Shown: positions 1,309 to 6,743 of the stretch, piece by piece | How the letters are laid out: each line of letters starts with the position of its first letter | Position numbering within the stretch: the first letter of the stretch is position 1 | Source: a candidate division CSSED10-310 bacterium | GTDB lineage: Bacteria; CSSED10-310; JAFGDC01 | NCBI GenBank assembly: GCA_016932295.1 | Contig: JAFGDC010000201.1 | Location: forward strand, 1 to 6,743 | Length of the DNA stretch: 6,743 nt | Direction of reading: 5' to 3' | The notes under the pieces: generated by a model | What the model saw: only the letters and a program-made list of their open reading frames with translations | Database searches by the model: none | Told to the model about the DNA's origin: nothing | Program-made: the position numbers and the translations under genes

Positions 1309-1395
1309 ATGAAAGCATCGAGGAATGGTAGTGGTGTAGTGAGCGTAGTGGTTCTCGCCGTGCTTACCGCGGTGATCGCCATGGGCGCGGGCGGT
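1309..1395 (+). other. Signal peptide of the giant protein
   Basis: Residues 1-6 carry two positive charges (K2, R5). Residues 10-24 are an unbroken hydrophobic core rich in Val, Leu and Ala, and a Gly/Ala/Ser-rich stretch follows. Cleavage is likely between about 26 and 30. No lipobox cysteine is present, so a lipoprotein is unlikely. The following acidic segment (VETD) fits a mature N-terminus. Confidence 0.8.
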
Positions 1396-4300
1396 TCAGG
1401 AACAGTCTCTTCCCGGGTGGCTCCGGCTGTCGAGACTGATTGGCTGGATGCGGTGCAGGAAAGCATCCGCGCATCCGAGTACAACCTGACCTACTACCCG
1501 GAAGTGACTATCGGCTCCATCGGCGCGGCATATTACGCGCCGAACCGGGCGCATGGCATCCGTGCCTACTTCACCACGGACGGACTCGTCCTTACACCGC
1601 GCGCCGAGAATGAAGCAGCGTGGTTGTGTACGATGCGATTCGATGGCTACGGGCGGGATGCGCTGAAAAACGTTCCACCGCTCAAGGAACAGCGGGTGAC
1701 CGCCAATCGCATCGAGTATCAGCGCACGGGCATGAGTGAATGGTACCTGAATGATGAACGAGGGATCGAGCAGGGCTTCACCTTGATGCATCGCCCCGAT
1801 GGACCGGCTGACTCACCGCTGTGGGTCGCCCTCAAGATCTCGGGCGATCTGGCCCCCAGGCAAGCAGGCGCCATCGTGGAACTGGTGGACACCCAGGAAC
1901 GGGTGCTGTTGAAATATGGCGTCTTACGGGTGGTGGATGCGGCCGGCAGGGACGTGCCAGGGGAGATCCAGTGCCGGAACGGCGGCGTACGTCTCATCAT
2001 CAGGGATCGCGAGGCGATCTACCCGTTGATGATCGATCCGGTCATCACTCAAGAACAGATGAGTGAACTCTGGCATTACGACGGGAATCAGAATTACGAA
2101 AACCTGGGATTTTCCATCGCCAATGCCGGCGATATCAACAATGACGGCTATGAAGATATGATCGTCGGAGCGCCGTACTTCGATTACTGCTCGAGCAATG
2201 TCGGCCGCGCGATGGTGTTTCTCGGCTCCTCCACCGGACCGGCCAGCTCGCCGGTCTGGACCCATTATGGTAACCAATACAGTACCAATTTACAGTTTGG
2301 GTATTCGGTGGCGGGCGCCGGCGATGTCAACAGCGACAGCTACGACGATATCGTCGTGGGCGCACCCGGCACCGGCTGTGGCGTTCCGGGCGGCGCCGCG
2401 TTCCTCTACTACGGTTCAAGTTGCGGATTGGCCAGTGAATGGAGCTACGCGCATTCCCAGTCGTACGCGGAGTTCGGTTTTTCGGTTGCCGGGGCGGGTG
2501 ACGTCAATGACGACGGGTACGACGACATCATCGTCGGGGCGCGTTTCTATGGTAATTACAATGCCGGCGCGGCCTACGTGTTTCATGGCTCATCCAATGG
2601 TCTCGGGGCTGCCTATAACTGGATGGGAGTCGGAGAGGCGGCGGATCCTTACGAGCGGTTCGGATGGTCGGTGGCGAGCGCCGGCGACGTCAACAACGAC
2701 GGTTTTGATGATGTCATAGTCGGCTCGCCCTATTATTTCGGCTGTGGATGCGGCGTGTACGAATACGGTCACGCCTACCTCTTCAACGGTTCCAGCAATG
2801 GCTTGGGAGCGACGCATAGTTGGACCGCCACCATGAACGTCGATGCCCACTTCGGTTGGGACGTGGCTTCGGCCGGCGACGTCAACGGCGACGGCTATGA
2901 TGACGTGATAGTGGGCGCTCCGCAGTTCAACGAGTGCAGTATCTACGGCAAGGCCTTCGTGTACCCGGGCTCCGCCAGCGGCTTGTCCACCTCGCCCATC
3001 TGGCAGCACTGGGGTTACGGTTACGGCGAGTTCGGCGCGGCGGTCGCGGGTGGCTATATCGACAACGATCCATACAGCGACGTGATCGTCGGCATGTACG
3101 GCATCTACAGCAACAACGGTAGTGTCTACGTCTACAAGGGCGGCGCTGCAGGACCTGATACGGATTCCGATTACTACGCCTTCGGCTCGAACAGTTGTAT
3201 GCTGGGTTTCTCGGTGGATGCCGGCGACGTCGATGGTGACGGCCTGGACGATATCATCGTCGGCTCCCGCATGTACACCGAATCGTGCGGCGCTTCGCAA
3301 GCAGGACGGGCGCATGTTTTCAAAACTTCCCTGACTCCCGGTCCCACGATAACTCCTTACGTATCACCGAGCATGACCCCTACCTTCGTGATGACGCCAA
3401 CTCCGGAACCGACGATTGGTGCGTCACCGACACCGGTGGGGCCGACCACATGGAGCACCGACAGCCAGGAAAACCTGCGGGTCACCGCCTCCCAGACCGG
3501 CCAGGAATGCCTGAAAATCATCGCCGACGACGTTGGAGGTTATATCCTCTCCTGGTGCGTACCAGGAGAACTCACCGCGTACGACATATTCGCCCAACGG
3601 TTCGACGAAAACGGCACCCGCATGTGGGGCGATGAAGGCCTCTGCATCTGCCAGGCCGACTCGGATCAGTACTGTCCGAAGCTATCACCGAACGGGTCCG
3701 GAGGGGCTATCATCTGCTGGCAAGACGAACGAGACGGTAACCACCATATCTACGCTCAGCATGTGAGTATCGACGGAATTCCCCAATGGACGACAAACGG
3801 AATTAGAGTCTCACCGGTCGGAGTGGATTATTATTTCTCATGCTGCTTCAACGAACCAGACGGGATGGGCGGCATCTACGTGGTATTCAGTGGGGAACCG
3901 GCCAGTTACTGCCAGCACGTCAACAGCGACGGCACACTCTCATGGGATCCACCCGTACAACTCTCCCAGGTGACCAACTACGCTGGTGCAAAACTCGCAC
4001 CAGATGGAACGGGAGGAGTGCTCCTTACATGGATTGATGAACGTGGCTCGACCGGTATGGATATTTACGCCCAACGACTGGATAGCAACGGCAACCAACT
4101 CTGGGGTCAGAACGGGCTGTGCGTCTGCGCCGCCAGCGAGTATCAGCAATGCCCGCGGGTTGTGGGCGACGGCGCCGGCGGCGGCATCTTCCAGTGGCGC
4201 GACTACCGCGACGAGGAAGGCGACTACCTCTACGCGCAAAAAGTCAGCGCGGCCGGCACCATCCAGTGGACCGCCGACGGTATCCAGGTCTCCAGCGATG

Positions 4301-6743
4301 ATTACGTAAACAACCAGAACGTGCTCTACGATGGCGCCGGTGGGATGTACGTCCTCTGGCAGTCGCAGACCGACGGCAACCTCCACGCCGACCGTTTCGA
4401 TGCGGCCGGCCTGTCCCTCTGGTCAGAACCATTGGATGTCACCAATCTTGATTATGCCGACATCGTCTGTTCGCGCTTCAGTTGGACCAATGACGGCGCC
4501 GGCGGAGCGCTGGTGACCTACTGGTCATACGATGACGGCTACAAGATCTATGCGCAAAGAATATCTCCGAACGGAACATTACCATGGGGGATACATGGGA
4601 AAATACTCTGCGATCATTCCAGGGACGATTATCGGCAATGCGCCCAGATCGCACCGTGCCTCAGCACGTACGGCGGAGGCCTGGTGGCCTGGCTCGATTC
4701 CCGCGATAAAGCGGAAGCGCTCTTCGTCATGGGGGTCAATTTCCGCGGTGAACTGGGCAATCCCTGCGCTTCGATCGAACACACCCAGTGGAGCACCGAC
4801 ACGTTGAACAACCTCAAGGTCACCGACCGCTGGGGTCAACAGTACGCCTACCGCGTTCTCGCCGATGAGGATGGCTCCTACTTCGTGAGCTGGACCGAAT
4901 GGTTCGAGGATGAACAAGATTACGACATCCTCATTCAAAAATTCGACGGCACCGGCGACCGCCAATGGGGTGAAAACGGCGTAGTGGTCTGCAACAGCAC
5001 AGCCGAACAGTATTGCGCCCGACTGGCCCTGGACGGCAACGGCGGTGTCTTCGCGTTCTTCGTGGATGAGCGCTTGGAAAGCTCTCGGGTCTACGGTCAG
5101 CATATCTCCCCAACCGGGACGTTGCTCTGGGCATCGGACGGTATCCCCATTTCAAGCCTCGACGACTCCGGGGAATGCCCGGAACCTGCTCCGGACGGCA
5201 ACGACGGCGTGTATGTGGTCTGGCGCGGAGAAAATATCCACTGCCAGCGCGTGGATGCCAGCGGCAACCTGCTGTGGAGTCCTGAACTGACCATCACCGG
5301 CACCTATCCACAAGGCACGAAAATCCTCGCCGACGGCCTGGGCAACGCCATCATCACCTGGTTCGACTACAACGAGACAACCTATTACGATGTCCGGGCG
5401 CAAAAAATCAGCCCCGCGGGCGCTCTCCTGTGGGGCAGCACCCCAGTTCCGGTATGCGTGGCGACGGAAAGCCAGGATTGCCCGAGGATCGCCACCGACG
5501 GCGCCGGCGGTGCATACATACTCTGGCTCGATTACAGATCCATGAACAATGGCGGCGCTTTCATGCAGCACCTGAATGCCGGTGGCACGCCCAGTTGGAC
5601 CGCCAATGGCCTCGAAGTATCGGATGCGTACCACGATGCCTGGTGCCACACCCTGGTTTACGACCAAGCGGGAGGAGTGATCGTCACCTGGATCGACCAA
5701 GAGACCAACGATGTGTACGCCAGGCATTTGGCGCAGAACGGCACCGACCTGTGGGGCCAGATCATTCAAATGACCGACTGCGGGCAGGTCTTCTACGCCT
5801 CCAACTCACCCAACCAGACAGTATCCGACGGCCAGGGCGGCGCCATCACCACCTTCTCCACCATGAACTGGCTCCGTGTCGCACCTGTCGTCACCACACA
5901 ACGAATCGCCTACGACGGCAGTCTGCCCTGGGGTATTTCCGGCACGGTACTGTGCAACCATCCCGTTGGTGAAAGAGAATGCCCGCGATTGGCGGAATGC
6001 CGCGCCGGTTTCGGCGGTGCCCTGGCCATCTGGAGTGATTCACGCAACGGTTACTGGGATATCTACCTCATGGGCGTCAACACCAACGGCGTCATCGGCG
6101 ATCCCTGCCTGATGCTGGCGTCTCCCACCCCGGTAGCCACCGACACGCCCGAGCCCACCCTGACCCCCACCAAGACACCCACCAGGACCCCCACGCGCAC
6201 CCCGTCACCCACCTGCACCTTCACCCCCACTCCCGGTCCGCCCAACACCCCCACCCCCACGCCCATCCCCACCAACACCCCCACCCCGGCCCCCGATCTC
6301 GTCATCACCACCCAGGACATCAGCTTCACCCCGCCCTATCTCAACGACGGTGACCCCGTCACCATCGCCGCCACCGTCCACAACAACGGCAACGCCCTCG
6401 CCCTCTCCTTCGTCGTCCGCTTCACCGCCAACGGCAGCCAGATCGGCACCGACCAGATCGTCGCCTCGCTACCCGCCGGCGGCGCACAGACCGTCTCCAT
6501 CGCCTGGAACGCCGTCTGCGACACCACCGTCACCGTCACCGCCGACGCCACCAGCCTTGTCCAGGAATCACGCGAATACAACAACTCCGCCGCCCGCAAG
6601 ACCCCCATCTGGTACTGCCCCGGCTCCTGCTCCTGTTCGATCGTGCCCGCCAGCCGCGCGGTGCCGGTGGGCACCCAGACCTCCTTCCAGGTCCGGGTCA
6701 GCAACGGCAACTTCGGGCCCGACACCTTCGACCTGCAGATCAG
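1309..6743 (+). CDS. Giant secreted multi-propeller protein: FG-GAP propeller, two eight-unit repeat modules, CARDB (3' partial)
   Basis: The frame runs without a stop for 1,811 codons and leaves the window open. Residues 1-29 are a signal peptide. About 45-244 is the N-terminal domain often found before FG-GAP arrays, with EQGFTL near 152 and YPLMIDP at 238-244. Residues 267-654 hold seven FG-GAP blades. About 676-714 is a Thr/Pro linker. Residues 715-1153 and 1161-1600 are two eight-unit repeat modules. About 1605-1662 is a second Thr/Pro linker. About 1663-1766 resembles CARDB, and another Ig-like domain begins after a Cys-rich seam (1770, 1774, 1776). No enzyme active site is visible. The likely role is adhesion or binding at the cell surface or outside the cell, by analogy with FG-GAP and CARDB proteins; the ligand is unknown. 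Membrane anchor or sorting signals, if any, lie beyond the window. Its own promoter precedes it. The start at 1309 rests on the GGAGG and on the signal peptide that follows directly. Confidence 0.93.
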   Translation, partial: MKASRNGSGVVSVVVLAVLTAVIAMGAGGSGTVSSRVAPAVETDWLDAVQESIRASEYNLTYYPEVTIGSIGAAYYAPNRAHGIRAYFTTDGLVLTPRAENEAAWLCTMRFDGYGRDALKNVPPLKEQRVTANRIEYQRTGMSEWYLNDERGIEQGFTLMHRPDGPADSPLWVALKISGDLAPRQAGAIVELVDTQERVLLKYGVLRVVDAAGRDVPGEIQCRNGGVRLIIRDREAIYPLMIDPVITQEQMSELWHYDGNQNYENLGFSIANAGDINNDGYEDMIVGAPYFDYCSSNVGRAMVFLGSSTGPASSPVWTHYGNQYSTNLQFGYSVAGAGDVNSDSYDDIVVGAPGTGCGVPGGAAFLYYGSSCGLASEWSYAHSQSYAEFGFSVAGAGDVNDDGYDDIIVGARFYGNYNAGAAYVFHGSSNGLGAAYNWMGVGEAADPYERFGWSVASAGDVNNDGFDDVIVGSPYYFGCGCGVYEYGHAYLFNGSSNGLGATHSWTATMNVDAHFGWDVASAGDVNGDGYDDVIVGAPQFNECSIYGKAFVYPGSASGLSTSPIWQHWGYGYGEFGAAVAGGYIDNDPYSDVIVGMYGIYSNNGSVYVYKGGAAGPDTDSDYYAFGSNSCMLGFSVDAGDVDGDGLDDIIVGSRMYTESCGASQAGRAHVFKTSLTPGPTITPYVSPSMTPTFVMTPTPEPTIGASPTPVGPTTWSTDSQENLRVTASQTGQECLKIIADDVGGYILSWCVPGELTAYDIFAQRFDENGTRMWGDEGLCICQADSDQYCPKLSPNGSGGAIICWQDERDGNHHIYAQHVSIDGIPQWTTNGIRVSPVGVDYYFSCCFNEPDGMGGIYVVFSGEPASYCQHVNSDGTLSWDPPVQLSQVTNYAGAKLAPDGTGGVLLTWIDERGSTGMDIYAQRLDSNGNQLWGQNGLCVCAASEYQQCPRVVGDGAGGGIFQWRDYRDEEGDYLYAQKVSAAGTIQWTADGIQVSSDDYVNNQNVLYDGAGGMYVLWQSQTDGNLHADRFDAAGLSLWSEPLDVTNLDYADIVCSRFSWTNDGAGGALVTYWSYDDGYKIYAQRISPNGTLPWGIHGKILCDHSRDDYRQCAQIAPCLSTYGGGLVAWLDSRDKAEALFVMGVNFRGELGNPCASIEHTQWSTDTLNNLKVTDRWGQQYAYRVLADEDGSYFVSWTEWFEDEQDYDILIQKFDGTGDRQWGENGVVVCNSTAEQYCARLALDGNGGVFAFFVDERLESSRVYGQHISPTGTLLWASDGIPISSLDDSGECPEPAPDGNDGVYVVWRGENIHCQRVDASGNLLWSPELTITGTYPQGTKILADGLGNAIITWFDYNETTYYDVRAQKISPAGALLWGSTPVPVCVATESQDCPRIATDGAGGAYILWLDYRSMNNGGAFMQHLNAGGTPSWTANGLEVSDAYHDAWCHTLVYDQAGGVIVTWIDQETNDVYARHLAQNGTDLWGQIIQMTDCGQVFYASNSPNQTVSDGQGGAITTFSTMNWLRVAPVVTTQRIAYDGSLPWGISGTVLCNHPVGERECPRLAECRAGFGGALAIWSDSRNGYWDIYLMGVNTNGVIGDPCLMLASPTPVATDTPEPTLTPTKTPTRTPTRTPSPTCTFTPTPGPPNTPTPTPIPTNTPTPAPDLVITTQDISFTPPYLNDGDPVTIAATVHNNGNALALSFVVRFTANGSQIGTDQIVASLPAGGAQTVSIAWNAVCDTTVTVTADATSLVQESREYNNSAARKTPIWYCPGSCSCSIVPASRAVPVGTQTSFQVRVSNGNFGPDTFDLQI
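1441..2040 (+). other. N-terminal domain that commonly precedes FG-GAP propellers
   Basis: From about residue 45 to 244 the sequence shows landmarks I recognise from secreted FG-GAP proteins: FTTDGLVLTPR near 86-96, a GYGR motif, EWYLNDERGIEQGFTL (144-159), a VALKISGDL strand, a 'LKYGVLRVVDAAGR-(D)-(V)-P' stretch, and the closing YPLMIDP (238-244). The spacing suggests an all-beta domain. Its function is not known to me. It lies directly before the first FG-GAP blade, so it may cap the propeller or assist its folding. Confidence 0.6.
2107..3270 (+). repeat. Seven FG-GAP repeats forming one seven-bladed propeller (integrin-alpha type)
   Basis: Seven copies of the pattern F-G-.-S-V-A-.-A-G-D-V-N-.-D-G-Y-D-D-.-I-V-G-A-P begin at 2107, 2296, 2473, 2659, 2851, 3031 and 3202, spaced 57-64 codons apart. 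Most carry the D-x-N-x-D-G-x-x-D loop that binds calcium in integrin alpha subunits. Blade 2 has Ser for the loop Gly (DVNSDSYDD). Blade 6 is degenerate (YIDNDPYSD) and has lost the first Asp and the Gly. The region between loops often reads A-.-(V/L)-(F/Y)-.-G-S-S-.-G-L, the second FG-GAP landmark. The total of seven is the number needed to close an integrin-like propeller. The repeats are protein-level, and the DNA copies are diverged. Confidence 0.92.
3334..3450 (+). other. First Thr/Pro-rich linker
   Basis: About 39 residues rich in Thr, Pro, Ser and Val (for example TPTPEPT) separate the FG-GAP propeller from the first repeat module. The codons are mixed here (ACT, CCG, CCT, ACG), unlike the almost uniform ACC/CCC of the second linker. 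It probably forms an extended, possibly glycosylated, spacer. Confidence 0.8.
3451..4767 (+). repeat. Repeat module 1: eight propeller-like units (a-h)
   Basis: Residues 715-1153 form eight consecutive units with the pattern 'D-G-.-G-G-(5)-W-.-D-.-R-(5-8)-(I/L)-Y-A-Q-(R/K)-(5)-G-(3)-W-(4)-G-(I/L)-.-V'. Unit starts are 3451 (a), 3655 (b), 3820 (c), 3973 (d), 4135 (e), 4300 (f), 4450 (g) and 4618 (h). Their lengths are 68, 55, 51, 54, 55, 50, 56 and 50 residues. This repeat type is common in large secreted proteins of uncultured and anaerobic bacteria and looks like a beta-propeller blade with GG and W-D-R landmarks; I know of no proven function. The module opens with TTWSTDSQENL and ends with MGVNFRGELGNPC. 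Boundaries between units are my choice and could shift by some residues. Confidence 0.85.
4789..6108 (+). repeat. Repeat module 2: eight units matching module 1 one by one
   Basis: Residues 1161-1600 repeat the layout of the first module. It opens with TQWSTDTLNNL and closes with MGVNTNGVIGDPC. Unit starts are 4789 (a), 4999 (b), 5161 (c), 5302 (d), 5464 (e), 5629 (f), 5782 (g) and 5962 (h), with lengths 70, 54, 47, 54, 55, 51, 60 and 49 residues. Unit-specific marks recur at the same positions: a short unit c with YCQ/HCQ in place of YAQ, 'CPR...DGAGG...DYR' in unit e, LPWGI..G..LC in unit g, and an extra cysteine followed by a WLDSR/WSDSR motif in unit h. The DNA identity is clearly reduced, so the duplication is not recent. 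Confidence 0.85.
6118..6294 (+). other. Second Thr/Pro linker, C-rich DNA
   Basis: About 59 residues alternate Thr and Pro with single Lys, Arg, Asn or Glu in between (TPTKTPTRTPTRTPSPT). It joins module 2 to the CARDB-like domain and probably serves as an extended stalk. Almost all codons end in C, so the + strand is a run of C and A with very few T. The complementary strand consists of closely spaced G-runs. Confidence 0.85.
6295..6615 (+). other. CARDB-like Ig-fold domain
   Basis: Residues 1663-1769 begin with PDLVIT (P1662 just before), carry VHNNGNALA in the middle and end with VTADATSLVQES-RE-YNN. The D-L-x-(I/V) opening, the N-x-G-N turn and the final 'D....V.E..E.NN' are the landmarks of CARDB (PF07705), an Ig-like domain of bacterial surface proteins. 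It probably spaces other domains away from the cell or binds neighbours. The DNA here is nearly uniform in C-ending codons. Confidence 0.8.
6616..6743 (+). other. Start of a further Ig-like domain after a Cys-rich seam (cut by the window edge)
   Basis: Cysteines at residues 1770, 1774 and 1776 (YCPGSCSCS) precede a segment with VPVGTQTSFQVRVSN and FGPDTFDL. The pattern 'G....F.V.V.N.G...D.F.L' is typical of bacterial Ig-like repeats that follow CARDB domains. The sequence ends inside the domain, so its family cannot be settled. Confidence 0.45.

Follow-up and report, generated by a model that had tools for sequence, protein, structure and literature searches.

The large gene in the window, the whole stretch of 6,743 nucleotides from a candidate division CSSED10-310 bacterium that was analysed here, very probably encodes two predicted eight-bladed propellers in series, derived from a ring that had been diversified into eight blades and was then copied whole, before the present gene. 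By blade register, controls and module tree, a single ring first turned into eight different blades. The whole diversified ring was then copied, and the copies represent an old duplication with kin in proteins of two or three rings.

Gene and protein architecture

The following features were assigned on the forward (+) strand:

1309..6741, +: large multi-domain protein of at least 1811 residues, open at the 3' end of the window (from the list of open reading frames and the ATG at 1309)
2131..3378 (end approximate), +: FG-GAP (integrin-alpha-like) domain, Pfam PF01839, E 1.2e-46
3451..4767, +: first of the eight-unit rings (module A, residues 715-1153), with HMM-placed units a-h spanning residues 718-768, 773-821, 827-873, 879-927, 932-981, 987-1032, 1038-1088 and 1093-1145
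4768..4788, +: linker of seven residues joining the rings, left over between the two modules in their alignment
4789..6108, +: second of the eight-unit rings (module B, residues 1161-1600), with HMM-placed units a-h spanning residues 1164-1213, 1220-1268, 1274-1317, 1323-1369, 1375-1424, 1430-1477, 1482-1534 and 1541-1593
6121..6280 (bounds approximate), +: Pro/Thr-rich linker of the TPTPT type, from the translation
6289..6594, +: CARDB domain, residues 1661-1762, Pfam PF07705, E 1.4e-16

The start of the protein was placed at the ATG at 1309, with GGAGG just upstream; the mechanical list of open reading frames uses the ATG at 1189. In the translation, the N-terminus contains a hydrophobic stretch resembling a signal sequence, on the basis of which the protein is probably exported. 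Seven D.(N/D).D...D..VG-type motifs were counted in the FG-GAP domain; they start at residues 275-640, and one is irregular. The company of the FG-GAP and CARDB domains, together with the N-terminal hydrophobic stretch, points to a role in display or adhesion outside the cell. There is about an even chance that the protein is exported and uses the rings, held by flexible Pro/Thr linkers next to FG-GAP and CARDB, as stable discs for binding or spacing in adhesion or ligand capture.

Ahead of the gene, at 1129-1170, a promoter-like pair of hexamers (10/12 match) was identified; a short hairpin (GTGCC-GGCAC, ending in a T-rich tail) abuts the pair. The expectation from shuffled sequence is 0.4 and 0.5 such sites. 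An Rfam scan that included this region gave no match at gathering scores. An upstream open reading frame at 2-934, which touches the window edge, has a C-terminal tetratricopeptide-like stretch (best Pfam score 26.2 bits, cut-off 27).

Comparison of the two modules

In BLASTP, a single match joined residues 1-439 of module A to residues 1-440 of module B over their full length, with 36.5% identity in 446 columns (E 2.6e-95). Each module contains eight anchors of the D.GG type, at matching spacings (55, 56, 48, 55, 54, 54 and 57 in A; 56, 54, 46, 55, 55, 55 and 59 in B). Both start with WSTD and finish with MGVN..G.(L/I)G(N/D)PC, as described in the first-pass annotation, and the totals of 439 and 440 residues given there agree, with unit cuts that are slightly different here. 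The full-length match and the anchor spacings bear out the claim made there of a complete eight-unit module duplicated in tandem as a block.

When residues 715-1153 were aligned with 1161-1600 and eight units were cut from each module, same-letter units outscored different-letter units (mean 95 versus 37). The mean unit scores within one ring were 39 for A and 31 for B, so that equivalent blades across the rings are more alike than blades inside one ring. The in-phase sum was 760, with 236-363 for the other shifts, and among the 40,320 possible pairings it was reached only by the in-phase pairing itself, a result obtained again (1/40,320) with slightly different unit cuts. For units b-g, without the end units, the means were 87 and 46, and one of 720 pairings reached the in-phase sum. 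The same letter was the best match in six of eight rows and six of eight columns of the unit matrix. B-c outscored B-f as partner of A-f (81 versus 73), and B-d outscored B-g as partner of A-g (62 versus 46); the best partner of B-c in module A was A-f and that of B-f was A-b. The weak units of the protein are c, f and g, and the same letter wins 11 of 16 comparisons inside it. On the DNA level, no long match is left between the modules (the top match by E-value covers 36 bases at 78%, and the longest one listed covers 53 at 68%). Since the halves no longer align at length, the doubling is old and not an assembly artefact.

Structure models were obtained for the A+B pair and for module A alone. 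They contain eight strand groups per module, several of which have an outer strand that is short or was not assigned. The repeat corresponds to a blade of some 55 residues, in most cases made up of three long strands plus one short strand. Module A modelled alone was compact and confident (pTM 0.90), and each full module in the predicted models superposed best on an eight-bladed ring. The ring sizes of BamB, Rsa4, Cdc4, CylK, the Photorhabdus lectins and the Scone designs were taken as background. The structure prediction and blade count proposed with the first-pass annotation pointed to two closed eight-blade rings, by model and by superposition, and the predicted models support that the gene encodes two eight-bladed beta-propellers in series. 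The W-S-T-D strand at the start of each module would most likely complete the last blade and close the ring. A sequence search of solved structures gave no match up to E 10, and among viral predicted structures general propeller matches only were identified.

The register of the two rings was compared with that in 100 sixteen-unit proteins. The ratio of in-phase to out-of-phase scores was 2.45 for the window protein and 2.35 for P0013, and at most 1.16 for the other 98. No other protein of the 100 has a mean identity among blades as low as these two (30.2 and 32.1%); the next value is 35.0%, and the other 98 range from 35 to 72%. The window protein and P0013 form a subfamily with P0002, P0003 and P0241, of which P0241 and P0003 contain 24 units and P0002 contains 21, its record beginning inside a ring. 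The C-termini of P0002 and P0241 consist of Pro/Thr-rich sequence, a hydrophobic stretch and a basic tail, which is like a C-terminal sorting or anchoring signal. For the twelve complete modules of the five subfamily proteins, the best match outside the own module was the same letter in 94 of 96 units. Within these proteins, the same letter was picked in 122 of 144 cases (11/16, 15/16, 43/48, 37/48 and 16/16); for 123 further proteins with sixteen units the figure was 321 of 1968, with one in eight expected by chance. The register, the control in which 2 of 100 sixteen-unit proteins gave the signal, and the same-letter picks support the earlier proposal that the array first diversified and then doubled. 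Judged by these comparisons, the distinguishing feature of the window is the block copying of an already diversified ring.

In the module trees, the modules of the five subfamily proteins form one clade (100/100), also without P0241. Module B was identified as sister to the third module of P0002, with support of 100/99. Forcing A and B as sisters was rejected (log-likelihood 63 lower, p 1.1e-5); this constraint was tested after the first tree had been seen, and the grouping tested was the obvious prior one. A position of A beside P0002_m2 was not rejected (p 0.22), and the deeper forks of the module tree are mostly weakly supported. With A and B rejected as sisters and B sister to the third module of P0002, the split of A and B is older than that of the window gene and P0002. 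The two closed rings of eight suggested by the first-pass annotation are retained from the models and superposition, but a doubling inside the present gene is not, as A and B had parted before P0002 split off.

Ring number in the repeat family

Array sizes were counted in a family set of 343 proteins, the window's own included, taken as the best 120 of 724, 2100 and 142 matches, under length limits, to queries with 16, 8 and 21 units. The unit HMM was trained on the first list (best 120 of 724). In this ranking, arrays of 9-15 or more than 16 units should rank about like those of 8 or 16, and arrays of fewer than 8 may be under-listed. By the unit HMM, the count was 8, 16 or 24 units for 108 of the 120 proteins of the first list, and exactly 8 for 115 of 120 in the second (best 120 of 2100). 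Among all listed proteins, 8 or 16 units were present in 294 of 306 well-scoring arrays, at a limit of 30 bits and with 19 arrays touching protein ends left out. At 20 bits, 303 of 322 listed arrays were multiples of eight; without a score limit the number was 303 of 377, with sevens making up 32 of the other 74.

A single-unit model was also searched against 58 genomes of one phylum (centre G001; it holds L001, Candidatus Krumholzibacteriia), of which 45 matched. Fifty loci were considered, 11 obtained via the module query and the rest via the single-unit model (most of the latter about 3 kb), and 5 cut arrays were dropped. Eight units were found in 22 of 33 uncut arrays, a number that counts one gene twice, L012 and L016 being overlapping views; the other 11 contained 3, 4, 6 (two), 7 (five) and 9 (two) units. 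In L025, four strong units lie inside a long frame; L034 is divided between two frames, and L037 begins at a contig end. L044 and L046 are true sevens: each protein has seven good eight-type blade units, with further sequence after them, so that ring size can differ within the eight-type family. On contig C67 of G001 (1202-7729; L012, L016, L020), three neighbouring genes have exactly eight unit matches each, and by these matches they are single rings multiplied as separate genes, not inside one protein. From the unit counts, eight is the usual size in the repeat family and not special to the window protein, a correction to the first-pass annotation.

A related lineage is built on seven units (P0293, P0305, P0315, P0322, P0323, P0326, P0334, P0340, P0341 and P0342). 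Its blade consensus, TTGDQQEPSVAADADGGFVVAWQSSGQDGSGYGVYAQRYDA, occurs in complete sevens, with up to six arrays of seven per protein. The related blade, ..P..A.D..GG.VVAW....YAQR.DA (P0293, P0315, P0322, P0326, P0341 and others), likewise forms mostly complete rings. Unlike in the window family, the lineage's own model gives 7, 14 or repeated sevens; this model was trained on 12 proteins picked for giving sevens. In 10 of these, every array is of 7 or 14 units, and P0331 and P0313 have one extra array of 4 or 6 units. P0304 and P0320, printed beside the 12, gave 4+9 and 6+7 units.

It is quite improbable that the sixteen units arose blade by blade, with the likeness of same-letter units due to shared constraints of ring position, for example on first and last blades. 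Single-blade amplification is dominant in the highly repetitive propellers described in excerpts of PMC9218822, and the rings of other proteins show a slight in-phase excess against the window modules (mean 15, maximum 121, 313 rings). However, the excess of A against B is 415, units b-g alone are still in phase, and of 100 sixteen-unit proteins, subject to the same constraints of the ring, 98 lack the signal. A single open solenoid or one large ring of sixteen units would agree with the step from unit 8 to unit 9, which does not exceed 60 residues in 101 of 125 proteins with sixteen units (71 in the window), with no linker marking the boundary, but the clustering of array sizes on 8 and 16, the compact model of module A alone and the superposition of both halves on closed rings make it extremely improbable.

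A higher probability, albeit still a low one, is given to a doubling of the ring long ago in the whole family, in which later blade exchange wiped the in-phase signal outside the window subfamily. Sixteen is indeed the commonest size among the listed long homologues, and the two proteins with a strong signal are those with the lowest blade-to-blade identity. Against this, single-ring proteins are common, and in a tree of 32 rows first and second modules pair by protein in P0035 and P0059, whereas P0005_m1 pairs with P0068_m1; this mixed pairing suggests more than one ring doubling in the wider family.

Excerpts of PMC9218822 describe blade numbers that form a continuum in highly repetitive propellers and peak at a preferred number, and state that no counting system accompanies blade amplification and that mature propeller lineages favour a well-defined blade number. 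From this preference, as given there, a mature ring would be expected to have the usual eight. Copying a mature ring as a block is ordinary domain duplication, and the more interesting part is the rarity of sizes other than 8 or 16 among the listed arrays (mean blade identity 35-72% in the other 98 proteins with sixteen units). Among near-identical blades, unequal exchange would add single blades and selection would retain complete rings, part-rings failing to close and being lost; diverged blades would no longer recombine, and the close repeats remaining would be ring-sized. We only tentatively propose, and consider rather doubtful, that ring size is heritable and written into the blade, as essentially complete eights here and complete sevens in the related lineage, irrespective of growth by single blades or in blocks, with a step from blade-sized to ring-sized copying after divergence and the window subfamily as the block-copying end state. 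L044 and L046, with seven good units in the same family, speak against a ring size dictated by the blade. The listed arrays, mostly of 8 or 16, beside the seven-unit lineage offer a good natural test of the determinants of ring size, and the window subfamily would represent a later stage, where the copying unit is the whole diversified ring.

Nearest known systems

For the window repeats, no Pfam model scored above its cut-off. Scanned alone, modules A and B gave no match to the FG-GAP family (PF01839) up to E 1, PF03640 (Lipoprotein_15) was absent for the window protein and the modules up to E 1, and neither the whole protein nor the modules matched a Pfam WD40 family. Six relatives were scanned as well: P0012 scores above the cut-offs of Lipoprotein_15 and Mtf2_C with its repeat units, and the other five, for which Lipoprotein_15 was not listed, pass none on the repeats. 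The score of P0012 against Lipoprotein_15, a secreted repeat of unknown function, was 53.7 bits (cut-off 24.4), which may reflect distant kinship or a stray match. Many listed relatives are hypothetical proteins or unnamed, and some carry the name 'predicted lipoprotein with Yx(FWY)xxD motif'. Nothing matched among phage records, and plasmid records yielded one weak match (Azospirillum, 23%, E 3e-6). A description of the repeat was not found in the literature searched; as the repeat had no name to search by, it is not claimed to be undescribed.

The nearest named propeller repeat model is NCBIfam TIGR04275 (beta_prop_Msarc), for which no mention was found in the literature searched. The window protein and all six relatives scanned fall below its cut-off of 85 bits: P0012, P0121 and P0005 scored 83.5, 66.7 and 65.2 bits, the window protein 17.2, and P0002, P0003 and P0013 gave no match at E 0.01. 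The eight-bladed WD40 propeller of Fbw7 (2ovq/2ovr) has 8-10% sequence identity, with blades of about 40 residues compared to about 55 here. According to an excerpt of PMC6327176, 2ymu is a natural protein with 14 WD40 repeats forming two seven-bladed propellers. As in the window protein, the repeat number in one chain is a multiple of the ring size; however, in contrast to the diverged blades and the block-copied ring of the window protein, 2ymu is described there with highly repetitive blades and a ring of seven.
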